Notes under the pieces: generated by a model
What the model was told of the DNA's origin: nothing
Database searches by the model: none
What the model saw: the letters and a program-made list of their open reading frames with translations, nothing else
Assembly (NCBI GenBank): GCA_026987075.1
Contig: JALSNI010000034.1
Coordinates: 1 to 43,971, forward strand
DNA length: 43,971 nt
DNA from: Persephonella sp.
GTDB taxonomy: Bacteria; Aquificota; Aquificia; Aquificales; Hydrogenothermaceae
Direction of reading: 5' to 3'
Program-made: the position numbers and the translations under genes
In this document: piece after piece, positions 533 through 17,420 of the stretch
Position numbering within the stretch: the stretch's first letter is position 1
Layout: every line of letters begins with the position of its first letter

Positions 533-1792
533 TTAACCCTCCTGATTCCATATTTTTATAAGGTAATCTTTCATCTTTTCAAATATCTCTGCCTGTTTGT
601 TGTAGTACTCTTCTGCCTCTTCGTTATTTTTGTCTTTCAGTTCATTAACTAACGATGCCACTCTTCCGTTATATAAAGGTATCATTGTGTCAAGGATTTT
701 GAACTTCTGCCTTGGTGTTCTGTGAAAGTAATCTGCATAACGGTAAACGATTCTGACCCATGTTTCAATAGGCATAATAAATTTTTCCACATCTTCTTCC
801 ATAAACAGCTTTTCTATTATTTTAAAGTCTTCATCTTCTAATATGGAACGCCATACTCCTGCAAAGTTGTTGTATCCTATTTTGAAATACTCTATTAATG
901 ACACCTGGTCTATCTCAAAGGGTTCAGGTTCTTCACCGATTATCTCCCCCACAACAGGAATATCTTTTGAGCCTTTTACATTTTTCCAGTAGTCTTCGTA
1001 CTGTTCCATCAGCTTAAATATAGTTCCAACAACCTCCCGATACATATGGGAGAGGTCTTTTCCCGGGTCCTTTTCCTGATGGATTTTTGCTCCTAATCTT
1101 GCCTGACATATGCTGTAACCATCTACAATAGCTGTTGTTGTCATCCATATGTCTATACCGAATTTTGCAACATCTGTTTCCCATACATCTTTGTCTAAAT
1201 AATCCTTTATTAGCTTACCAGACATTCCAAAATCTCCCCCGATAGGCTGTCTTATTCTGTATCCGTACAATGCCCTTGTAAGATTATAGGCTATTGTGTT
1301 TGTTATTGTTCCGTCAAACTTGTATCTTCTGTAGTATGGACAGACATAGTCATACCCGTCGTAAATAGGCTGGATAATATTTTTCACCCATTCTGGTGTT
1401 ATAGATTTAAGGTCTGAATCAAATGTGGCTACTGCTTCAGCTCTCAAAAACTCTGCAGCTTCAAATACAGCCCTTAAGGCAGAGCCTTTTCCCGGTATTC
1501 CTCTGTATATTGTAACGATTTTCTCAATGTTGTAGCGGGATATGTCAACCTCTTCAGCAACCTCCCTCGTGTCGTCTGTAGAACCGCCGTCAGAAACAAA
1601 TATGAGACATTTTTTATCGCTGAAGTATTTATCAAGACCAGATGCTACCTGCTGTATAACATGTGATATGGTAGACTGGCTGTAATAGGCAGGTATTCCC
1701 ACAACAATGTCTGCATATCCTAATCTCTCTATTTTTTTTCTTGCATCTTCCCTTAGAGCTGTTGAAAACCTTGTTTTTGGCAAAACTATCAT
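533..1792 (-). CDS. ggs: GT2/GT81-type glycosyltransferase, probable glucosylglycerate synthase
   Basis: This 419-residue GT-A fold enzyme probably joins glucose from a nucleotide sugar directly to D-glycerate, making glucosylglycerate in one step. Visible motifs are VGIPAYYSQ near residue 31, SDGGSTDDT (67-75), the GIPGKGSA loop (98-105), the metal-binding DSD (125-127), QPIGGDFGMSG in the middle, and a helical C-terminal third. It differs clearly from the neighbouring GpgS-like gene, so the two are not recent duplicates. It sits 1 bp after the glycerate kinase stop and its own TAA abuts gpgS. From memory, unverified, a single-step Ggs of this type has been reported from Persephonella marina. 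Mannosylglucosylglycerate-type or other GT81 activity is the main alternative. The Ggs name comes from family plus context, not from a diagnostic residue. Confidence 0.78.
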   Translation of the reverse strand: MIVLPKTRFSTALREDARKKIERLGYADIVVGIPAYYSQSTISHVIQQVASGLDKYFSDKKCLIFVSDGGSTDDTREVAEEVDISRYNIEKIVTIYRGIPGKGSALRAVFEAAEFLRAEAVATFDSDLKSITPEWVKNIIQPIYDGYDYVCPYYRRYKFDGTITNTIAYNLTRALYGYRIRQPIGGDFGMSGKLIKDYLDKDVWETDVAKFGIDIWMTTTAIVDGYSICQARLGAKIHQEKDPGKDLSHMYREVVGTIFKLMEQYEDYWKNVKGSKDIPVVGEIIGEEPEPFEIDQVSLIEYFKIGYNNFAGVWRSILEDEDFKIIEKLFMEEDVEKFIMPIETWVRIVYRYADYFHRTPRQKFKILDTMIPLYNGRVASLVNELKDKNNEEAEEYYNKQAEIFEKMKDYLIKIWNQEG

Positions 1793-1793
1793 C

Positions 1794-3089
1794 TTATCCC
1801 TCCACCATTATGATTGTTATGTCCATAACGTTTGTTCCTGTATAACCTGTTTTTATAAGACTGTCTGTTTTGCTGAAAAATGAGTAAGAGTCGTTGTTGC
1901 TGAGGTACTGGTTTATATCAAGGTTTAGCTCCTGTGCCCTCATAAATGTATCCCTGTCAATCACTGCTCCTGCTGCATCAGAATTTCCGTCAATCCCGTC
2001 TGTTCCTCCAGAAAGAACTGTTATTCCTTCTATATTTTTTATCTCCTCCAGTGCAGACAGACACAGTTCCTGATTTCTTCCTCCTTTACCATTTCCCCTG
2101 ACTGTTACTGTTGTCTCTCCTCCAAATAACAGTAAAGCAGGGGGGGTGAAAGGATTACCTGACTTTTTTATCTCTTTTGCGATGGATATTAATACCTTTG
2201 TTACTTCCTTTGCCTCACCCTTCATCTGAGATGTCATAATAACAGCAGGGAAATTTTTTTCTGCTTCTTGTTTTATCTTCTTGAGGGCTGTGAGATTGTT
2301 TCCTATTATGTAATGTTTTATGTTTTGGTTTTCTTTCTTTGGAGTTTCTGGTATTTTTCCGGAAATTCCTTCCTCAATGACTTTTTTTACAGAAGTAGGA
2401 ATATCATCCCACAGGTTGTATTTTATTAGAATGTCTCTTGCCTGCTGGTATGTAGACAGGTCGTAGTATAGAGGGGCTGAACCTATTGTAAAAAGGTCAT
2501 CTCCAACAACATCTGATATTACTAACACTATTCCTTTAGCTTTTGTAGCCCTTCCCAGTCTTCCTCCTTTTATCATGGACAGATGTTTCCTGACGATGTT
2601 TATCTCTTCTATAGGAACAGAATTTTCAAGGAGTAGCTGTGTTGTTCGTTTCAGGTCTTTCAGTGTTACTGGGGGAATGGGTTTTTCTATAAGGGCTGAG
2701 CTTCCTCCAGAGAGAAGATATATAAAAAAGTCATCTTCTTTTAGTGATGAGAGCTTTTGAAGGAGTATTTCTGCTCCTTTTATACTGTTTTCGTCAGGGA
2801 CTGGATGTGAACCTTTTATAACCTCTGTTTTTTTCAGCTTTTCTGTGTAGTTGCATACAACAACACCTTCCCTTATGTAATCCCCTAGTAAATTCTCAAC
2901 AGCCTTAGCCATCTGGATAGAAGCTTTTCCACTGCCAAAAAGATATACCTCTTTTTTTAGTGGATAAAAATCCTGTGATACTTTGAGTGTGTTGTCTGAA
3001 ATAGACAGATGTTCAGGTATAAGATTTTCTGGTTTTACTGCTTCTATTCCTGTTAGAAATAGCTCAGTGAGGAAGGCTTTCGTATTCAT
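1794..3089 (-). CDS. Glycerate 2-kinase, MOFRL family
   Basis: A 431-residue cytoplasmic kinase that phosphorylates D-glycerate, in this family usually to 2-phosphoglycerate. Features are LFGSGKASIQMAKAVE (about residues 50-65), LSGGSSALIEKP, the KHLSMIKGGRL segment, and the C-terminal MOFRL domain signature LLFGGETTVTVRGNGKGGRNQE with GGTDGIDGN following. Length is normal for the GckA/TtuD type. The ATG at 3089 has a GGAG ribosome site 8 bases upstream and overlaps the end of the phosphatase gene by 26 bases. Next to two glucosylglycerate synthases it most likely controls the glycerate pool used by Ggs: it could return spare glycerate to glycolysis or recycle glycerate from solute breakdown. 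That role is inference. The enzyme family is clear. Confidence 0.88.
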   Translation of the reverse strand: MNTKAFLTELFLTGIEAVKPENLIPEHLSISDNTLKVSQDFYPLKKEVYLFGSGKASIQMAKAVENLLGDYIREGVVVCNYTEKLKKTEVIKGSHPVPDENSIKGAEILLQKLSSLKEDDFFIYLLSGGSSALIEKPIPPVTLKDLKRTTQLLLENSVPIEEINIVRKHLSMIKGGRLGRATKAKGIVLVISDVVGDDLFTIGSAPLYYDLSTYQQARDILIKYNLWDDIPTSVKKVIEEGISGKIPETPKKENQNIKHYIIGNNLTALKKIKQEAEKNFPAVIMTSQMKGEAKEVTKVLISIAKEIKKSGNPFTPPALLLFGGETTVTVRGNGKGGRNQELCLSALEEIKNIEGITVLSGGTDGIDGNSDAAGAVIDRDTFMRAQELNLDINQYLSNNDSYSFFSKTDSLIKTGYTGTNVMDITIIMVEG

Positions 3090-3876
3090 TTAAAATTCTC
3101 CACACAACCTGGTTCCATCCTTTACTCCCGGGATAATCTGCTTTTATCAGACCGGGCAGATTTATCTCTTCATACTGTTTATTAATTTTTGGAATGAGGA
3201 CTGGAATGTCAACAACTCTGAGCATTGGAATGTCATTCTTACTATCTCCAATACCAACAGTTTTTATATTTTTCAGATATTTTCTAAATATATTTGCAGT
3301 GATTTTTACAGCTTTCCCTTTATCCTGCCCTTTTCCTATCAGGTGGTAAAATCTACCTCCTTTTGTGATTTTTAGATTGTGCTTTTCAGCTTCCTTTTCT
3401 AACTGGGGAAGCAGCTGGGGATTTTCTATTATAAAGGGCTCTGTAAACTCTCTGATTTTTGCTAATCTTGCCTTCTCTAACGGAAGGTCTGTAAAATAGG
3501 CAACTTCCTCTGCTGTCATGTCTCCAAATCCTTTTATCCTGAATCTGTCTTTTACCTTTTCAATAAACTTTCTGATGTGGTCATAACTTTCTCCTAAGAT
3601 TATCACTCTATATCCATTAATCTTTGGATAATCTAAGGAGAAGTTTCTGTACCCTTCTGGAAAGAATACAGCAGCTCCATTTTCTACTATGAAAGGTTCT
3701 TTTATCCCTATCTCTTTCTGCAGAGGTTCTATCTCTGCTCTTGTTTTGCTTGTGGTAAAAATGAGGGGTATTTTTAGTTTTTTTATTCTTTCTAAAGAAG
3801 GCAGAGCATCTGCATATGAATAATCATCATGGTTCAAAAGTGAGCCATCTAAGTCAGTGAATATTACAAGCATCAT
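3064..3876 (-). CDS. gpgP: HAD-family glucosyl(mannosyl)-3-phosphoglycerate phosphatase
   Basis: A 270-residue HAD phosphatase of the MpgP/GpgP (Cof-like, type IIB cap) family, which removes phosphate from glucosyl-3-phosphoglycerate to release glucosylglycerate and Pi. Visible motifs are DLDGSLL (residues 8-14, nucleophile and acid Asp), TTSKTRAEI near 40-48 (motif II region), FIVENGAAVFFP, GGRFYHLIGKGQDKGKA (cap and Lys motif III) and GIGDSKNDIPML (motif IV, metal Asp pair). The phoR stop and this ATG share the four bases ATGA, so the gene is very probably translated from the pst-pho message. It works with gpgS at the left edge of the window. Mannosyl-3-phosphoglycerate is a possible alternative substrate. 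The neighbouring GpgS and Ggs make the glucosyl compound likelier. Confidence 0.85.
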   Translation of the reverse strand: MMLVIFTDLDGSLLNHDDYSYADALPSLERIKKLKIPLIFTTSKTRAEIEPLQKEIGIKEPFIVENGAAVFFPEGYRNFSLDYPKINGYRVIILGESYDHIRKFIEKVKDRFRIKGFGDMTAEEVAYFTDLPLEKARLAKIREFTEPFIIENPQLLPQLEKEAEKHNLKITKGGRFYHLIGKGQDKGKAVKITANIFRKYLKNIKTVGIGDSKNDIPMLRVVDIPVLIPKINKQYEEINLPGLIKADYPGSKGWNQVVWRILNEYESLPH

Positions 3877-4868
3877 TCACCTGATGGGAGAACTACTGTA
3901 AATTTAGAGCCTTCTCCTAATTTGCTTTCTACCTGAACCTTACCGTTGTGAGCTTCAGCTATATGCTTGACTATAGAAAGACCCAGTCCTGTCCCACCGA
4001 CATTTCTGCTTCTGGATTTATCTACTCTGTAAAATCTCTCAAAAATCAGGGGAAGTGACTCTTTTGGTATGCCTATACCTGTGTCTATAACAGATATGTA
4101 GGTTTTATTATTTTTTAATGCAGATTCCACTGTGACAGTTCCCCCTTTTTTGTTATACTTTATTGCATTTTCTATCAGATTTTTCATCAGTATCACAAAC
4201 TTTTTCTCATCAACAGAAGCAGTGAAATCTGGGAAAACCTTGTTAATTAGTTTAACTTCTTTTTCTTCTGCTATGTCTTTAAGGTCTTCAAATATACTGT
4301 TTATTATTCCTTTTAGTTTAACCTTTTTTTTCTGTATTTTTTCTTCTTTTGATTCTAACTTTGCCAGTATTAGAAGGTCATTTATAAGGCTGTCCATCTG
4401 CTGAATGCGGTTTTTTGCTTTTTTCAGGAAGGTTTTTATAACTTCAGGGTCTTTCTCGTTTTCTAATGTTTCAATAACTCCTTTTAGCACTGTTATAGGA
4501 GTTTTTAGCTCGTGGGATACGTTGGATACAAAATCTTTTTTTGCCTGTTTGTATATCTCAAATGGGGTTATGTCCTGAAAATGTATCAGCTTCATACCGT
4601 TTATGTTCAGAACCCTTGCAAGAAATATGTCGTCGTCTATAACAATCTCTTCTTTTAGCTCCTTTTTAATGTCTGCACTGATGAGAGAGTAGAGATAGTT
4701 ATTTTTTACAACCTCTGAAAACAGTTTTCCCTCGGGATTTTTTATACCAAGAAGATTTTTTGCATAACTGTTCATATACTGTATATTTTTATTGCTGTCA
4801 ATAACAATCAGACCTTCCTTTAAATAATCTAAAAAGGAAACAAGAATGTTCTCTAAATGGTTTTTCAT
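3873..4868 (-). CDS. phoR: PhoR-like sensor histidine kinase, soluble form
   Basis: A 331-residue sensor kinase: an N-terminal PAS domain (about residues 8-105), then HisKA and HATPase. Visible are the H-box NVSHELKTP with His119, the N-box LIENAIKYN, G1 DTGIGIP, the F-box FERFYRVDKS, and G2 GGTGLGLSIV. It follows phoU with a 4-base ATGA overlap, so it should be the phosphate-starvation kinase that receives the Pst/PhoU signal and phosphorylates a PhoB/PhoP-type regulator. No hydrophobic membrane segment is visible before the PAS domain, unlike the classical membrane-anchored PhoR. No response regulator gene adjoins it in the window, so the partner must be encoded elsewhere. The kinase assignment is certain. 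PhoR function follows from position. Confidence 0.88.
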   Translation of the reverse strand: MKNHLENILVSFLDYLKEGLIVIDSNKNIQYMNSYAKNLLGIKNPEGKLFSEVVKNNYLYSLISADIKKELKEEIVIDDDIFLARVLNINGMKLIHFQDITPFEIYKQAKKDFVSNVSHELKTPITVLKGVIETLENEKDPEVIKTFLKKAKNRIQQMDSLINDLLILAKLESKEEKIQKKKVKLKGIINSIFEDLKDIAEEKEVKLINKVFPDFTASVDEKKFVILMKNLIENAIKYNKKGGTVTVESALKNNKTYISVIDTGIGIPKESLPLIFERFYRVDKSRSRNVGGTGLGLSIVKHIAEAHNGKVQVESKLGEGSKFTVVLPSGE

Positions 4869-5524
4869 TCCTCACCTAAGTTCTGGTGTCTGAGCATCTT
4901 ACCTTCTTTCATGTATATTACTTCCTCTGCAAGGTTTGTTGCTATATCTGCCACCCTCTCAAGATTGGAGGAGACAGTTATCAGTCTTATTCCCACTTTT
5001 ATGTTCTTTGGGTCCTCCACCATGTATGTGTAAATCTCCCTTATTATCTGTTCATGAAGAGCATCAACTTTGTCGTCTCTTGATATAACATCTCTTGCCA
5101 GTTCAGTGTCTAATGTCTCTAATGCTTTCACAGCATCTTTTACCATTCCTATAACAATGTCTGTCATAACAGGCAGGTCTACATACTCTTTTAGTTTTGG
5201 TTTTGTCAGTATCCTTTCTGCCTGCTCTTTTATATTTTCTGCGTGGTCTCCTATTCTCTCAAGGTCTCTGTTTACAAATAAATCCATAACAAGAATTCTT
5301 AGGTATTTTGCTTCTGGCTGAAATCTGGCAATAGTTGTTATAATCAGTGTCTCGTTTTCTATCTCCATCTGGTCTACTTGAGGCTCAAGTTCGTCGACAA
5401 TTTTAAGATACTCTGGGTTGTGCTCTATGATTGCTTTTATTGCGTTTTCTATCATCAGGTCTGCAAGCTCTGCCATCTTTATAAGTCTGTCTCTGATTTC
5501 TTCAAGCCTTGGTTTTAAAAGCAT
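4865..5524 (-). CDS. phoU: Phosphate uptake regulator PhoU
   Basis: A 219-residue helical protein made of two PhoU repeats. It links the Pst transporter to the PhoR kinase and restrains Pho signalling when phosphate is plentiful. Acidic metal-binding repeat motifs are visible as VNRDLERIGDHAENIKE in repeat one and SSNLERVADIATNLAEE in repeat two, the usual E/DxxxD arrangement. Length is typical. A GGGGGA ribosome site precedes ATG 5524, 11 bases after the pstB stop, and its own stop overlaps phoR by four bases. Gene order pstB-phoU-phoR is the expected functional set. Confidence 0.96.
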   Translation of the reverse strand: MLLKPRLEEIRDRLIKMAELADLMIENAIKAIIEHNPEYLKIVDELEPQVDQMEIENETLIITTIARFQPEAKYLRILVMDLFVNRDLERIGDHAENIKEQAERILTKPKLKEYVDLPVMTDIVIGMVKDAVKALETLDTELARDVISRDDKVDALHEQIIREIYTYMVEDPKNIKVGIRLITVSSNLERVADIATNLAEEVIYMKEGKMLRHQNLGEE

Positions 5525-5535
5525 ATCTTCCCCCT

Positions 5536-6303
5536 TTATCCAAATCTTCCACTGACGTAATCTTCTGTCAGTTTTTTCTTAGGAGATGTAAATATAATAT
5601 CAGTTTTGTCAAATTCAATAAGCTCTCCTAAATACATAAAGGCAGTATAGTCTGAAACCCTTGCTGCCTGCTGCATGTTGTGGGTCACGATAATTATCGT
5701 AACGGTGTCCTTCAGACTTACCACTAACTCTTCTATTTTGCTTGTTGATATAGGGTCAAGAGCTGACGTTGGCTCATCAAACAGAAGCACTTCTGGTTCC
5801 ACTGCAAGGGCTCTTGCTATAACCAATCTCTGCTGCTGTCCCCCTGACAGACCACTGGCTGAATCTTTCAGTCTGTCTTTTACCTCATCCCACAGGGCAG
5901 CCTGCTTTAATGCTTTTTCTACCCTTCCTTCTAATTCTGACTTATCTTTTATTCCCCTCAGTCTCAACCCGTAAGCTACATTGTCAAATATGGACATTGG
6001 AAATGGCGTTGGTTTCTGGAAAACCATTCCCACCCTTGATCTGAGGTCAATAAGGTCTATATCGTCAGACAGTATGTTCTGCCCGTCAAGGAGTATCTCC
6101 CCTTCATATCTGTTTCCGTGATACAGGTCGTGCATACGATTAAATGAGCGAAGCAGTGTGGTTTTGCCACATCCGGAAGGTCCAATCAGTGCAGTTACTC
6201 TGTTTTCGTATACTGGAAGGTTTATATTTTTCAGTGCAGGTTTGTCAGCTCCTGCATAGTAAAAAGAGAAGTTATTCACCTGAATTTTTACTTTTTCTTC
6301 CAT
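5536..6303 (-). CDS. pstB: Phosphate ABC transporter ATP-binding protein PstB
   Basis: The 255-residue ATPase that powers high-affinity phosphate import by the PstSCAB complex at the inner face of the cytoplasmic membrane. Walker [12 protein letters not shown] (about residues 41-51), Q-loop region [18 protein letters not shown] signature LSGGQQQRL, Walker [14 protein letters not shown] and the switch His in [14 protein letters not shown] are all present and intact. The Q-loop KPTPFPMSI stretch is characteristic of PstB rather than other importers. The ATG at 6303 directly follows the pstA stop codon, so the two are translationally coupled. Confidence 0.98.
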
Positions 6304-7146
6304 TTAGGTTTTATACCTCCAGTGAATGATAGACCTGGTTATGATTGTTACCAAAAGTATTACCACAGTTATAATGAACGCAGCAGCCCATGCTTTTTCG
6401 TGCCAGTCCTCATAAGGACCCATAGCATAATTAAAGATAGTTACAGTTAAAGACGCAATAGGCTCGTTCATGTTCAGTGTGAAGTAGGAGTTGTTAAAGG
6501 AAGTAAACAGCAGAGGAGCTGTTTCACCGGCAACCCGTGCTATTGCTAATATAATTCCTGTCAGTATCCCTGTTGCTGCTGCTCTGTAAACAACGTCTTT
6601 TATTACTCTGAAGTATGAAGCTCCAAGAGCAAAGGCTGCTTCTCTCAATGTCCATGGAACCAGCTTCAGCATGTCTTCTGTTGTTCTCAGAACAACCGGT
6701 ATCATAATAAATGCAAGAGCTGCAGCTCCAGCCCATCCACTAAAGTGGCCAAAGGGCTTAACCATTATGGCGTATATAAATGTTCCCACAACAATGGAAG
6801 GAACGCTTACCATAATGTCAGACAGGATGCTGATAAGCTGTGCAAACCTTGTTCCCCTTGCATACTCTGCTATGAATGTTCCCCCTAAAACTCCCAATGG
6901 AACGCCTATAAGGGTTGCAACAGATGTTATAAGAAGCTGTCCTACAAATGCATTCCTCAGTCCCCCTTCTGGTATTCCGGGAGGTGCAGGGTCTTCTAAA
7001 AACAGTTCTAAGTTTAGAGCTGTTATTCCGTGCCTTAGAACATCAAAGATGATAAACACAAGCCAGAACAGTCCCATAAAAGCAGCAAATGTTGAGAGGA
7101 TAAGTGCGATACTGCCTTTCAGCTTTCTTTTTGTTTTTATATCCAT
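6304..7146 (-). CDS. pstA: Phosphate ABC transporter permease PstA
   Basis: A 280-residue membrane subunit that forms the phosphate channel with PstC. About six hydrophobic segments are visible. The cytoplasmic coupling loop AFALGASYFRVIKDVVYRAAATGI carries the EAA-type motif that contacts PstB, followed by IARVAGETAPLLFTS, a signature of PstA. The N-terminus is short and positively charged (MDIKTKRKLKGS). It starts 4 bases after pstC and ends directly against pstB. Confidence 0.97.
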   Translation of the reverse strand: MDIKTKRKLKGSIALILSTFAAFMGLFWLVFIIFDVLRHGITALNLELFLEDPAPPGIPEGGLRNAFVGQLLITSVATLIGVPLGVLGGTFIAEYARGTRFAQLISILSDIMVSVPSIVVGTFIYAIMVKPFGHFSGWAGAAALAFIMIPVVLRTTEDMLKLVPWTLREAAFALGASYFRVIKDVVYRAAATGILTGIILAIARVAGETAPLLFTSFNNSYFTLNMNEPIASLTVTIFNYAMGPYEDWHEKAWAAAFIITVVILLVTIITRSIIHWRYKT

Positions 7147-7150
7147 GCTG

Positions 7151-8092
7151 TTACCTTCTGTAATGTTTTTCTGCCTTTAGCAGGAAGAATTTCGCAATCG
7201 CAAGTATAGTAAAGCTCATCAAAAACAGGATAAGGGCAAGGTAGAACAGAGAGGACAGATATATGTCTGAATCTGCTTCTGTAAACTCGTTTGCAAGGGT
7301 GACGGTTATTGTTGCAGCTGCATCTAAAAGGGAAGGAGTTATCTGGTGTTTATTGCCAAGGACAAATGCAACAGCCATTGTCTCACCTAAAGCTCTACCA
7401 AGAGCTAAAACTATTCCACCGTAAACTCCAAGTTTAGAGTATGGTATCACTATGTCTTTTATCACTTCCCATTTTGTTGCTCCAAGGGCATATGCTGACT
7501 CCTTTACAATGTCAGGTGTCAGGTTAAATGCATCCCTTGATATGCTGGCTATGAAGGGAGTTATCATTATGCTCAGGATTATACTTGCAGTCAGAAGGTC
7601 AACACCCATGGGGGTTCCTTCAAACAGTTTGTTTATAACGGGGATATTACCAAACATTTTTTGCAGAGCAGGTTCCACATATTCAGCCATTATAGGTGCA
7701 AGGGTAAACAGACCCCACATACCGTAGATAATACTTGGAATAGCTGCAAGCATCTCTATGGCTATGCCTATCGGTGTTCTCAGGATGTGGGGAGATATCT
7801 CTGTGAGGAATATGGCTATTCCTATGGAAACAGGTATAGCTATCATGAGGGCAAGGATTGTTGTTATAAGTGTTCCATAAAGGCTTGCAGCTGCACCAAA
7901 CACTTCCCTTACTGGGTCCCAGTCCACTGTAAATATAAAGTTTAAAAGACCAAACCTGTGGATTGCTAAAGATGATTCGTTGTATAGGACAACTATTGTT
8001 GAAAGTATCAGTGTAAGAATTGTAAATGCTGCAGAAAATGAGATGATACCGAAAATTAAATCTGCTAAAGGCAGTTTTGACAGTTTTTTCAT
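7151..8092 (-). CDS. pstC: Phosphate ABC transporter permease PstC
   Basis: A 313-residue membrane subunit, partner of PstA. It shows roughly six transmembrane segments, an EAA-type coupling loop ESAYALGATKWEVIKDIVIPY, and GRALGETMAVAFVLGN, typical of PstC. Compared with PstA it has a larger periplasmic loop (MAEYVEPALQKMFGNI and following). It is separated from pstS by about 89 bases containing a hairpin with a T-run, so its expression may depend on read-through from the porin-pstS message. No separate promoter was evident. Confidence 0.97.
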   Translation of the reverse strand: MKKLSKLPLADLIFGIISFSAAFTILTLILSTIVVLYNESSLAIHRFGLLNFIFTVDWDPVREVFGAAASLYGTLITTILALMIAIPVSIGIAIFLTEISPHILRTPIGIAIEMLAAIPSIIYGMWGLFTLAPIMAEYVEPALQKMFGNIPVINKLFEGTPMGVDLLTASIILSIMITPFIASISRDAFNLTPDIVKESAYALGATKWEVIKDIVIPYSKLGVYGGIVLALGRALGETMAVAFVLGNKHQITPSLLDAAATITVTLANEFTEADSDIYLSSLFYLALILFLMSFTILAIAKFFLLKAEKHYRR

Positions 8093-8146
8093 TATCTGCT
8101 GCTAAGACCCCGCCTTACTCTTTTTGAATAAAATTATAACAGAAAT

Positions 8147-8174
8147 AAAAAAAGGGAGCCTGGCAGCAGCCCCC
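8147..8174 (-). terminator. Hairpin plus T-run between pstS and pstC (partial terminator / attenuator)
   Basis: Read on the minus strand, GGGGGCT pairs with GGCTCCC (7 bp including two G-T wobbles) around a GCTGCCA loop and is followed at once by seven T. It begins 8 bases past the pstS stop and lies well upstream of pstC. This is the shape of an intrinsic terminator. Because the pst operon continues on the same strand with no clear new promoter, it probably lets only part of the transcription pass, giving more PstS and porin than transporter subunits. Confidence 0.72.
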
Positions 8175-8181
8175 GTGTGCT

Positions 8182-9186
8182 TTATGGATTGATTCCATAC
8201 TTTTCCCAGTATCTGTAAATCTTTTCTTTTAGTTCTTTAGGCAGTGGGACGTAATCTAACTTGATAGCTATCTCATCTCCGTGTTCAAATGCCCACTTGA
8301 AAAATCTGTTTACTTTCTTATTTACCTCGACTTTTTCCCTTGCCTCTAATATGAACGAAGCTCCTGCGATAGGCCATGCATTTTTACCGGGAGCATTTAC
8401 CATCCACAGATAAAAATGTTTTTTAGGGTCAAAGTTTGCTGTAGCCCCTGCAGACTTAAATGTTTCTATGCTTGGAGCTACAAAGTTCCCTGCCTGATTT
8501 TTAAGAAGTGTGTATTTCAGTCTGTTCTGTTTTGCGTAAGCAAACTCTACATAGCCGATAGAGTATTTCAGTCTTTTTACGTAGTTTGCAACACCTTCGT
8601 TTCCTTTTCCACCAATACCAACTGGCCATTTTACAGCCTTGCCTGCTCCAACCTTTTCCTTCCAGTCTGGACAGACCTGAGATAGATATGTTGTAAATAT
8701 TGCGGTAGTTCCAGAGCCGTCAGACCTGTGAACAACTTTTATGTCTTTGTGTGGCAGGTTTATCTCAGGGTTGAGTTTCTTTATCTTTTCGTTATCCCAG
8801 TATTTGATATCCCCAAGGAATATGTGGCACAGTGTATCACTGTCTAACCTGAGTTTTCCAGCCTTTACCCCCGGAATATTTACGACAGGAACAACCCCGC
8901 CTATTATTGCTGGAAACTGATAAAGCTTGTATTCGTCTAACTTTTCAGGGTTTAAAGGAGCATCAGAAGCCCCGAAATCTACTGTTCTGTTTTTTATCTG
9001 TCTTATTCCCCCACCTGAACCGATAGACTGGTAGTTCAGCTTAATTCCTGTTTCTTTGTAGTATTTGTATGCCCATGCTGCATATACAGGATATGGAAAT
9101 GTTGCTCCTGCCCCGTTTATTGTATCCCCTGCAAAAGATGTTGATACAACACCTGCCACAACAAATCCTGCTAATATCTTTTTCAT
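8182..9186 (-). CDS. pstS: Periplasmic phosphate-binding protein PstS
   Basis: A 334-residue secreted binding protein that captures phosphate and hands it to PstC/PstA. A short signal peptide (residues 1-19) ends at a likely STSFA cleavage site. The mature protein begins with the hallmark INGAGATFPYPVY, then YQSIGSGGGIRQI, VDFGASDAPL, and the phosphate-contacting HRSDGSGTTAIFTTYL. Length is typical. There is no lipobox cysteine, so it should be free in the periplasm. An AGGAGG ribosome site sits in the 16-base gap after the porin gene, suggesting co-transcription and high expression. Confidence 0.97.
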   Translation of the reverse strand: MKKILAGFVVAGVVSTSFAGDTINGAGATFPYPVYAAWAYKYYKETGIKLNYQSIGSGGGIRQIKNRTVDFGASDAPLNPEKLDEYKLYQFPAIIGGVVPVVNIPGVKAGKLRLDSDTLCHIFLGDIKYWDNEKIKKLNPEINLPHKDIKVVHRSDGSGTTAIFTTYLSQVCPDWKEKVGAGKAVKWPVGIGGKGNEGVANYVKRLKYSIGYVEFAYAKQNRLKYTLLKNQAGNFVAPSIETFKSAGATANFDPKKHFYLWMVNAPGKNAWPIAGASFILEAREKVEVNKKVNRFFKWAFEHGDEIAIKLDYVPLPKELKEKIYRYWEKYGINP

Positions 9187-9202: not shown

Positions 9203-10363
9203 TTAGTAGTGAACTTCTGCTGTTATCATGTATTTAGTGTAATCCTTTGAGCTGCCTTTGTCATAATCTACAGTGATTCCGTTAACTATCCATGTTATGT
9301 ATTTGTTCATGTGCCATGCAACACCGTATATGTACTGGTCTCTGTCCTTTGTGTTGTCGTCAGAGTTCCAGTGGTCGTATCTACCTAAGATAGAAATTTT
9401 ATGGTCTAATATAGGTCTTATCTCAAAGTTAAATGAGTATCCATCTCCAGAGTTTTCTGAGTTTGTGTACCAGTCTGACTTTATGTACTGTCCTGCTATA
9501 AGGAAAAGAGGCTGGTTGTAAACAGCATGTATCTGGTAAACAGTAAGGTCGTCATTAGAGCCTCTGTGATTGTAGCTGTTTAAAGCATGGAGTGATATGT
9601 TTGCATAAGTCTGGGAAAGAGGTTTAGGCTTTTTCTTTCCTCCACCTAAAACGTGCCATGTTGCTCTACCCTCAATCATTGGTTTGTTTCCTTTAGTTCC
9701 CTTGTCCTTTCTTCCTATATGGTCGTAACCTTCCCCATCAAATATTCCGTATTCAGCTGAGAAGTATTCAGTTTTTGTTTTAAAGTCAATTCCTGCGTCA
9801 GCAGAAGGAAGTAGGTGAGCTCCGTCCTTAGATTCGTAAAATGTTTTAGATATTGACCTGAACCACCATCCAGAGTGCTCTTCGTAATCAAGCCATGGTG
9901 TATGGGCAATACCAAGCTCAAAACCAGTGTAAGGAATGATAGATGAGATATCTTTGTATAGGTAGAGATGCTTAACCTTCAAGCTGATTTCTTTACCTTC
10001 ACTGCGATTTTCTTTGTGATACTGCCAAGAAACATCAAATGTAAATCTGAAGTGGTCTTTTTTGTTAAAGTAATACTTCGTTACAAAGTAACCTCTCCTT
10101 ACCTCAAAGCCACCTTCATCTGTTCCGTTCTTCTTATCCGTGAATGTGTAGCCTATGTATGCCTTTCCACCGAATTTCAGTTTCTTTGATTTTGTTAATA
10201 CAGGTCTGTCTTTTTTTGTTATTTCTTTTTCAAGCTGGGTAGCTTCTTCCTTTGTGAGTATTCCCTTTTCGTAGAGTTTTTTGATGATAGGATTTTTAAG
10301 CTCTCCAGCAAAAGAAGAACCTACAGCACCGATAAGAGCCATAGTAACAAGAGTTTTCTTCAT
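9203..10363 (-). CDS. Phosphate-selective porin (OprP/OprO-like)
   Basis: A 386-residue outer-membrane beta-barrel protein. A signal peptide ends near SSFAG (residue 20). The mature N-terminus is a short helical segment (KLYEKGILTKEEATQLEKEI), then many alternating beta strands rich in Y, W, G and charged residues. The chain ends in tyrosine (TAEVHY), the usual outer-membrane insertion signature. It has the general look of the O/P porin family. Placement directly before pstS and behind the candidate Pho-box promoter suggests it brings phosphate or polyphosphate across the outer membrane during starvation. Anion selectivity itself cannot be read from the sequence. Confidence 0.83.
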   Translation of the reverse strand: MKKTLVTMALIGAVGSSFAGELKNPIIKKLYEKGILTKEEATQLEKEITKKDRPVLTKSKKLKFGGKAYIGYTFTDKKNGTDEGGFEVRRGYFVTKYYFNKKDHFRFTFDVSWQYHKENRSEGKEISLKVKHLYLYKDISSIIPYTGFELGIAHTPWLDYEEHSGWWFRSISKTFYESKDGAHLLPSADAGIDFKTKTEYFSAEYGIFDGEGYDHIGRKDKGTKGNKPMIEGRATWHVLGGGKKKPKPLSQTYANISLHALNSYNHRGSNDDLTVYQIHAVYNQPLFLIAGQYIKSDWYTNSENSGDGYSFNFEIRPILDHKISILGRYDHWNSDDNTKDRDQYIYGVAWHMNKYITWIVNGITVDYDKGSSKDYTKYMITAEVHY

Positions 10364-10397: not shown

Positions 10398-10452
10398 ATT
10401 TTAAACATCTATTTTTAAGGTAGTATTAATTTTCTGTTAAAATTTTTTAACA
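10398..10452 (-). promoter_or_regulatory. Candidate Pho-box promoter in front of porin-pst operon
   Basis: On the minus strand there are TTAAAA (10450-10445), TTAACA (10440-10435), TTAATA (10429-10424) and TTAAAA (10418-10413). The last three are spaced exactly 11 bp apart and the first is 10 bp away. Downstream lies TAAAAT (10403-10398), a plausible -10 box, so the repeats would sit about 20 to 60 bp before the start of transcription. That layout matches tandem PhoP-type boxes (TTnACA repeats with about 5-bp gaps) known from Bacillus. The same stretch contains an 18-bp near-palindrome TGTTAAAA-TT-TTTTAACA (10435-10452) that could instead be a dimeric operator. Assignment is inferred from spacing and context. 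Confidence 0.5.
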
Positions 10453-10453
10453 A

Positions 10454-10481
10454 TTGAAAAAGTGCTGAAACACTGTATATT
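10454..10481 (+). promoter_or_regulatory. Probable sigma-70 type promoter for the ribBA operon
   Basis: TTGAAA (10454-10459) and TATATT (10476-10481) are separated by 16 bp and lie about 30 bases before the ribBA ATG. The spacer contains AGTG-CTGAAA-CACT, a small inverted repeat, and the segment GAAAAAGTG occurs twice (10456 and 10486). I see no FMN-riboswitch-like structure in the roughly 30-base leader. Confidence 0.45.
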
Positions 10482-16335: not shown

Positions 16336-17380
16336 GTTTTTTCTCTCTCCTTTTTTCTATAAATATCTCAACTCTCAGTTTTATTCTGTGTGCAATCATA
16401 CTTATTATAGTCCCTGCAATTAAACTTACAATAATTACAGATATGGAGTATATCTGGGGATGATTGAAGGCAAAATCTGAAATAAAGTTGTGAACCTGTT
16501 TTATCCCTTCTTTTGCTTTCTCTTTTTCAAAGAACAGCTGATAAAAGCTGAGAACTGATACAGTAGATACAAGGGAAGCCATTATCAGCTTTGTTATGTT
16601 TTTGTTTATTCTCTGACCTACTGCAGAGCCAAAAACAGCCCCAAAAGAAGAACCAGCCATAAGAATGAGGGCGAGGATAACATCAACCCCGTGATTTACA
16701 GTCCCGTGGAAGTATGTCAAAAATGCTGTTATAAAAATCATCTGAAATAGACTCATACCAACAGCTCTATTAACAGGAAGCCCTGCTAAATACATAAGGG
16801 CAGGGATTACCACAAATCCACCCCCTACACCCATAACAGCTGCTAAAAATCCAGATATCAGCCCAATAAAAACAGGTATTAAGACAGAAAAATGTCCAAA
16901 ATCAAATCTATACTTGAATGGGAGCAAATCTATAAACTGTTTAAATCTGCTTTTTTCTTTTTCTGGTTTTTCTTTTTTAATCAGGTCTATAAACATTGTA
17001 ATTCCTGTAAAGGCAAGATAAAAAGCATAAAAAGAGAGAACGAATGTTCTGAAATGACCAGCCTCTTCTAATATTTTTGTCAGGAAAACCCCAAAAGCTC
17101 CACCAACAAATCCAGAAATTATAAGAACAGCTCCAAGTTTTAAATCAATATTTTTGAGTCTCAGATGGGCTAAAAATCCTGATACTGTTGCACCTACCAT
17201 CTGGGCAACAGATGTTCCTACTGTAACTATTGGAGGAATACCTAACTTTATCAAAGTGGGATTGAGAATAATACCTCCACCTATTCCAAGCATACCGGAG
17301 AAAAATCCTACAACAAGACCAAGGGTTATTAAAACAAATACATTAACAGAAACGTCTGCAACTGGCAGGTATATCTCCAA
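16316..17380 (-). CDS. TauE/SafE-type sulfite/anion exporter family permease
   Basis: A membrane permease of about 354 residues, with two homologous halves each starting with a G-rich motif: GFFSGMLGIGGGIILNP and GFLAAVMGVGGGFVVIP. It has roughly 8 to 9 transmembrane segments and a C-terminal cytoplasmic, arginine-rich tail. Family members move sulfite, organosulfonates or other small anions, or have unknown cargo. I place the start at TTG 17380: a perfect GGAGG lies 7 bases upstream and the resulting EIYLPVADVSVN N-terminus is typical of this family. The longer frame (to 17446) would add 22 uncharacteristic residues. In a sulfur-oxidising bacterium, sulfite export is plausible but unproven. 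Confidence 0.86.
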   Translation of the reverse strand: MEIYLPVADVSVNVFVLITLGLVVGFFSGMLGIGGGIILNPTLIKLGIPPIVTVGTSVAQMVGATVSGFLAHLRLKNIDLKLGAVLIISGFVGGAFGVFLTKILEEAGHFRTFVLSFYAFYLAFTGITMFIDLIKKEKPEKEKSRFKQFIDLLPFKYRFDFGHFSVLIPVFIGLISGFLAAVMGVGGGFVVIPALMYLAGLPVNRAVGMSLFQMIFITAFLTYFHGTVNHGVDVILALILMAGSSFGAVFGSAVGQRINKNITKLIMASLVSTVSVLSFYQLFFEKEKAKEGIKQVHNFISDFAFNHPQIYSISVIIVSLIAGTIISMIAHRIKLRVEIFIEKRREKKLENRVD

Positions 17381-17420
17381 ACCATAACCTCCAAACTGAG
17401 CATTGCTGAAGACAAATATA

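Follow-up and report, generated by a model that had tools for sequence, protein, structure and literature searches.

A glucosylglycerate gene cassette behind pst-phoU-phoR in one branch of the Hydrogenothermaceae: conserved linkage and a two-unit model of its transcription

Introduction

Two routes to glucosylglycerate have been described in Persephonella marina, a two-step route through GpgS and GpgP (Costa et al. 2007) and a one-step route through Ggs (Fernandes et al. 2007), both as referenced in PMC3899277. In marine cyanobacteria the synthesis of this compound is tied to nitrogen, and the GpgS protein rises under nitrogen stress (Klahn et al. 2010, cited by PMC11020310). On the side of phosphate, known Pho boxes are 11-nt direct repeats (PMC4415409), and other bacteria have been found to carry a hairpin in the pstS-pstC gap; in S. 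lividans pstSCAB is transcribed whole and extra pstS is transcribed in addition (PMC2605767).

The DNA analysed here, a stretch of 43,971 nucleotides from Persephonella sp. (hereafter the window), carries glucosylglycerate genes joined to phosphate genes. Costa and colleagues and Fernandes and colleagues reportedly treated the gpg genes as operon-like without remark on their joining to pst-phoU-phoR, the latter group being said to have described gpgS, gpgP and ggs in this way. PstCAB, PhoU and PhoR form a sensor complex, which is needed also when phosphate is ample.

Gene order and gene identities

The cluster lies on the minus strand and runs in the order porin, pstS, pstC, pstA, pstB, phoU, phoR, gpgP, glycerate kinase, ggs and gpgS (Table 1). 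Its distal joints are tight: phoU and phoR overlap by 4 nt, as do phoR and gpgP (ATGA, with a second ATG immediately after), gpgP and the kinase gene overlap by 26 nt, and the gaps from kinase to ggs and from ggs to gpgS are 1 and 0 nt. The ORF coordinates bear out the preliminary description of this DNA, which had reported the phoU-phoR and phoR-gpgP overlaps and the gapless succession of gpg genes, and NCBIfam and Pfam support the identities. The cluster reaches further upstream than had been described, to porin and pstS, which were missed, as were the separation of pstS from pstC by a terminator and a promoter element and the restriction of the arrangement to one branch of the family. The first gene has no Pfam or NCBIfam matches and is called a porin on our own reading; its orthologues head pst operons across the family. 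A search of the window against Rfam returned no matches.

Table 1. Genes and predicted signals of the cluster in the window.
Feature	Position (nt)	Strand	Basis
Pho-box-like array (P1)	10413..10456	-	TTAA elements, 10-11 nt spacing (TGTTAA..TTAACA..TTAATA..TTAAAA)
Porin-like outer-membrane protein gene (putative)	9203..10363	-	ORF; first gene of cluster
pstS	8182..9186	-	NCBIfam TIGR00975, 384.8 bits
Intrinsic terminator after pstS (predicted)	8154..8174	-	GGGGGCTGCTGCCAGGCTCCC + T7; hairpin -10.6 kcal/mol
Extended -10 promoter element P2 before pstC (predicted)	8133..8141	-	TGTTATAAT; 12 bases past terminator
pstC	7151..8092	-	TIGR02138, 298.9 bits
pstA	6304..7146	-	ORF and gene order in relatives
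pstB	5536..6303	-	TIGR00972, 397.6 bits
phoU	4865..5524	-	TIGR02135, 174.7 bits
phoR-like sensor kinase	3873..4868	-	TIGR02966, 296 bits (below cut-off of 334)
gpgP, glucosyl-3-phosphoglycerate phosphatase (HAD family)	3064..3876	-	TIGR01486, 252 bits (above cut-off of 164.75)
Glycerate 2-kinase (DUF4147 + MOFRL)	1794..3089	-	NF041176, 310 bits (below cut-off of 550); both Pfam domains above cut-off
ggs, glucosylglycerate synthase (GT2 fold)	533..1792	-	Pfam Glycos_transf_2 and MGS_GT
gpgS, glucosyl-3-phosphoglycerate synthase, N-terminal 177 aa	1..532	-	NF040724; remainder lost at contig end

GpgP carries the expected HAD motifs, with D8, D10, G210-D211 and N214-D215 invariant in 13 homologues, and is 66% identical to the single P. 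marina orthologue. The latter should be the characterised GpgP; a preference for glucosyl- over mannosyl-3-phosphoglycerate as substrate is putative. Ggs has the GT2 fold and is 78% identical to P. marina Ggs, which occupies the same position. GpgS is cut at the contig end; its 177-aa part shares 85% identity with the P. marina counterpart, and a copy in G017 that is 99% identical to the window's scores 350 bits against NF040724 (cut-off 700). The PhoR-like kinase has a maximum 19-residue hydropathy of 1.2 and no predicted membrane helix, and the PhoR copies checked from P. marina and from genera g9 and g10 likewise have none, so that phosphate sensing would go via a soluble kinase. A PhoB-like regulator is encoded at a distance from phoR, on contig C14 (G000, 16710-17396; TIGR02154, 246.7 bits, below the cut-off of 296).

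Conservation of the phoR-gpgP linkage

The comparison set comprised 41 genomes of the family. gpgP lies directly 3' of phoR in 12 of the 12 genomes with a visible joint: 11 of the window's genus (g1), which are all those in which gpgP was found (one, G027, being split over two contigs inside gpgP), and P. marina EX-H1 (G016, whose 53,682-base contig is identical to plasmid NC_012439.1 over the 6,000 bases tested). Among these 12 genomes the phoR-gpgP junction ranges from -8 to +3 nt and its sequence varies. With order and tight joints recurring throughout the 11 genomes and P. marina, the arrangement is not a product of chance.

Related genomes had been proposed as a check on the linkage, and they place the joint in this branch and not in sister genera. 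The gpg genes of g2, g3, g4 and g5 are located away from phoR: in G001 (g2) they follow an RND efflux gene, and in g4 a 2-hydroxyacid dehydrogenase gene that overlaps gpgP by 4 nt. After phoR stands an unrelated gene in g2 (no NCBIfam match; an NAD-dependent epimerase by our reading), and the run ends with phoR in g6, g9 and g10. As the gpg genes sit in different operons in different genera and other genes follow phoR elsewhere, the placement is labile; the phoR-gpgP linkage is a shared trait of one branch, P. marina together with the window's genus. The dehydrogenase that overlaps gpgP in the g4 genome G012 (L039, 10472-11500) has glyoxylate reductase as its best NCBIfam match and might supply the pathway with glycerate.

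In the congener G022 phoR and cysM are separated by two small ORFs, and its assembly, ~70% complete, yielded no gpgP and no ggs. The ORF directly behind phoR, in gpgP's place, encodes 167 aa (L081, 9162-9665), has no NCBIfam match and is followed by the second small ORF. The G021 contig (L080) stops inside phoR.

Unrelated flanks, namely ribBA and the genes next to it, cysM and a ruvA-like gene, are also conserved within the genus and, in part, by P. marina, so that conservation alone is no proof of a regulatory purpose. On the ribBA side of the P. marina cluster, the gene order of the window is lost beyond ~5 genes, within the next 37 kb. The gpg tree broadly matches the pst tree, which indicates a long presence of the cassette in the family, with a change of place; horizontal gain in this branch was rejected on the same ground. 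In a search for such linkage beyond the family, one of the best 80 of 553 gpgP-like loci adjoins pst-phoU, and that one (L145) is itself Persephonella; other 'pstB' and 'phoR' matches near gpgP-like loci, 25-36% identical, were regarded as ABC ATPases or kinases of a general kind.

Two assemblies call for separate mention. G004 was set aside as a g2 example of a gpg cluster since it shares identical gpg proteins with the g4 genome G012, and its gpg contig is probable bin contamination from g4. Contig C87 of G023 (L112) carries a second phoU-phoR with a g2-type downstream gene and, in the pst tree, groups with G005 of g2; this too is probable bin contamination.

Predicted transcription signals

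At the head of the cluster stands the Pho-box-like array, P1, the TTAACA of which is 77 nt upstream of the porin start codon. The array is kept in all 11 genomes of g1 and P. marina in which the porin upstream region is present, and arrays of this type recur before porin or pstS in sister genera, mostly with lower scores. Under a matrix built without the window, with a training set that included the near relative G022, the P1 site scores 47.3 against 9.1 for the next best site in the window, and the strict array pattern has a single perfect match genome-wide, which is the P1 site. The PhoB-like regulator of contig C14 would be the candidate to bind these repeats. The matrix scan found the array before porin only, with no Pho-box-like site in the pstS-pstC gap or before gpgP; across the genus no site in that gap scored >12, and the gpg clusters of sister genera had none. 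A Pho box at the promoter directly serving the gpg genes, as a target of the Pho regulon would have, was thus not found. In G033, a genome of g9, a strong Pho-box-like site (score 27.4) lies directly behind phoR (L096, 6167-6124, minus strand), with several hundred bases beyond it that hold no large gene; a small gene or RNA may be its target.

The pstS-pstC gap is read here as a predicted terminator followed by a predicted extended -10 promoter, P2, the two together interrupting what would otherwise be one operon from porin to gpgS. Hairpin and T-tract are present in most relatives despite quite different stem sequences, as is expected for a functional terminator. TGNTATAAT usually follows them by 3-14 bases; it is exact in 13 of the 14 pstS-pstC gaps of g1 and P. 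marina (G022 has GTGTATAAT). Among the sister genera, g2, g5 and g10 have the exact motif, and g6 and g9 have close variants of it. A shuffled gap contains this motif in ~0.4-1.3% of cases. Genome-wide it occurs 132 times and its reversed control pattern 58 times (2.3 times as common). Over the whole region, terminator-like matches number 16 against 7.1 in shuffles, an excess of no more than about twofold, though the terminator after pstS is conserved. A clear hairpin was not found in the gap of G025, nor in that of the sister genomes G021 (L080) and G022 (L081), the last of which is also without the gpg cassette. The composite of terminator and extended -10, with the T-tract almost abutting the latter, is kept across most genera of the family and may be a general device for restarting transcription inside an operon.

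Beyond P2 the coding strand of the operon contains no TGNTATAAT. Sigma-70-like matches number 27 against 26 in shuffles. In the 3' part of phoR, synonymous sites are conserved at the background level (0.46-0.67, mean 0.55), which gives no sign of a promoter for gpgP only. At the 3' end of pstB (5536-5640, minus strand), the last ~30 codons reach a synonymous conservation of 0.69-0.80 against a gene mean of 0.53 in nine genomes, and GAATTTGAYAAAACTGATATTATATTTAC in this stretch recurs, slightly altered, in other genera; a hidden signal or a further promoter before phoU might lie there.

A two-unit model and its alternatives

The pst-gpg linkage is real, lineage-specific and undescribed in the literature searched. 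From the gene order, overlaps, conservation, repeats and the terminator and -10 sequences we infer promoter activity, co-transcription, a level of read-through and a phosphate response that fit two transcription units, and a probability of about 0.6 is given to the reading that the cassette is expressed from P2 with the sensor genes and that Pho-dependent read-through comes as an addition only. In the branch of P. marina and the window's genus, the cassette of gpgP, glycerate kinase, ggs and gpgS would have joined an ancestral porin-pstSCAB-phoU-phoR cluster as its 3' end. P1, formed by the array and a -10, would drive porin and pstS as far as the intrinsic terminator; P2, an extended -10 with no Pho box, would drive pstCAB-phoU-phoR and the four gpg genes, with a start expected ~7 nt behind TGATATAAT, before pstC. 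The overlapping gpg joints are probably translation-coupled, and the cassette would receive a steady, housekeeping-type expression alongside the Pst-PhoU-PhoR sensor complex. A Pho-independent promoter would make sense at this place in the present organism, as the complex is needed at ample phosphate. Transcripts from P1 that pass the terminator may contribute a modest rise that depends on phosphate; the read-through in S. lividans leads one to expect some here, and with leaky pst terminators the contribution of P1 to gpg expression may be larger than assumed.

The preliminary description had proposed that the gpg genes are co-transcribed with phoU-phoR and come under phosphate-starvation control. 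Co-transcription is well supported by the sequence, given the tight joints in 12 genomes and a 3' part of phoR that carries no conserved signal. The second part is not supported, since the sole Pho-box-like array lies before porin, the predicted terminator and P2 intervene, and the gpg clusters of sister genera have no Pho-box-like site. Phosphate control of the solute is a possibility and not the default, an idea that partial read-through would keep alive.

It is unlikely, in this light, that a single Pho-controlled polycistron runs from P1 to gpgS and that phosphate starvation induces glucosylglycerate synthesis, although the array heads the cluster, the genes are contiguous on one strand and pst terminators elsewhere are only partial (PMC2605767). 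The logic of such control would possibly be that a phosphate-free anionic solute replaces solutes of the di-myo-inositol phosphate type and that GpgP returns Pi from 3-phosphoglycerate. In P. marina, where an inositol-phosphate synthase gene adjoins one that resembles di-myo-inositol-phosphate synthase (NF041135, 321.6 bits, below cut-off), this swap is possible, but the genome of the window holds short PF01066 frames only, with no comparable 400-aa frame, and the swap was rejected as a general reason. Against the polycistron there is also the silence of the literature: a search that paired glucosylglycerate or mannosylglycerate with the Pho regulon and with limitation or starvation for phosphate returned no described Pho control, in agreement with the preliminary description, which knew of none. 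We consider it doubtful, and still less to be expected, that read-through from P1 raises GpgP, Ggs and GpgS as an output of the Pho response and that the phosphate-free solute replaces di-myo-inositol phosphate in Persephonella; if true, the swap would be a counterpart of the replacement of phospholipids by glycolipids.

It is improbable that gpgP, the kinase gene, ggs and gpgS are served by a promoter of their own within phoR or phoU that responds to osmotic stress or heat. Weak minus-strand sigma-70-like matches do occur in phoR at 4381 and 4136, and gpg clusters elsewhere must use other promoters, but the number of such matches equals that in shuffles, the 3' part of phoR shows no raised synonymous conservation, and TGNTATAAT does not recur after P2. 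A stronger case, at somewhat less than even odds, can be made that the cassette landed behind phoR, was kept there by general synteny and uses the local promoter without regulatory meaning. The likelihood of this reading overlaps that of the two-unit model, since it fits the P2 architecture and addresses why that architecture exists. The retention of ribBA, cysM and the ruvA-like gene makes the linkage partly ordinary synteny, the host operons differ between sister genera, and G022 has no cassette at that spot; against it, overlapping or near-zero joints persist while the junction sequences change, and in P. marina the block outlasts its surroundings on the ribBA side.

If the solute genes track phosphate supply, this would be, to our knowledge, the first case in which glucosylglycerate is linked to the Pho system, and it would occur in a cultivated species with characterised enzymes. 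If they do not, the conserved terminator-promoter module shows how the family can run PstS and porin apart from the Pst-PhoU-PhoR sensor complex, and why adjacency by itself is poor ground for inferring Pho control.

Comparison with known systems

The cyanobacterial link to nitrogen resembles the phosphate link considered here in that the same product is tied to nutrient state; it differs in that the nutrient is nitrogen and not phosphate and that no pst linkage is described for it. The glucosylglycerate genes of P. marina are identical to those of the window in gene set and order. With the pst clusters of known Pho regulons the window shares the order of pstSCAB, phoU and phoR and the 11-nt direct repeats before the first gene (PMC4415409), and with those of other bacteria the hairpin between pstS and pstC (PMC2605767). 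It is set apart from the Pho-regulon clusters by an extended -10 right after the hairpin, a soluble PhoR, a phoB-like gene located elsewhere and the presence of solute genes at the 3' end.
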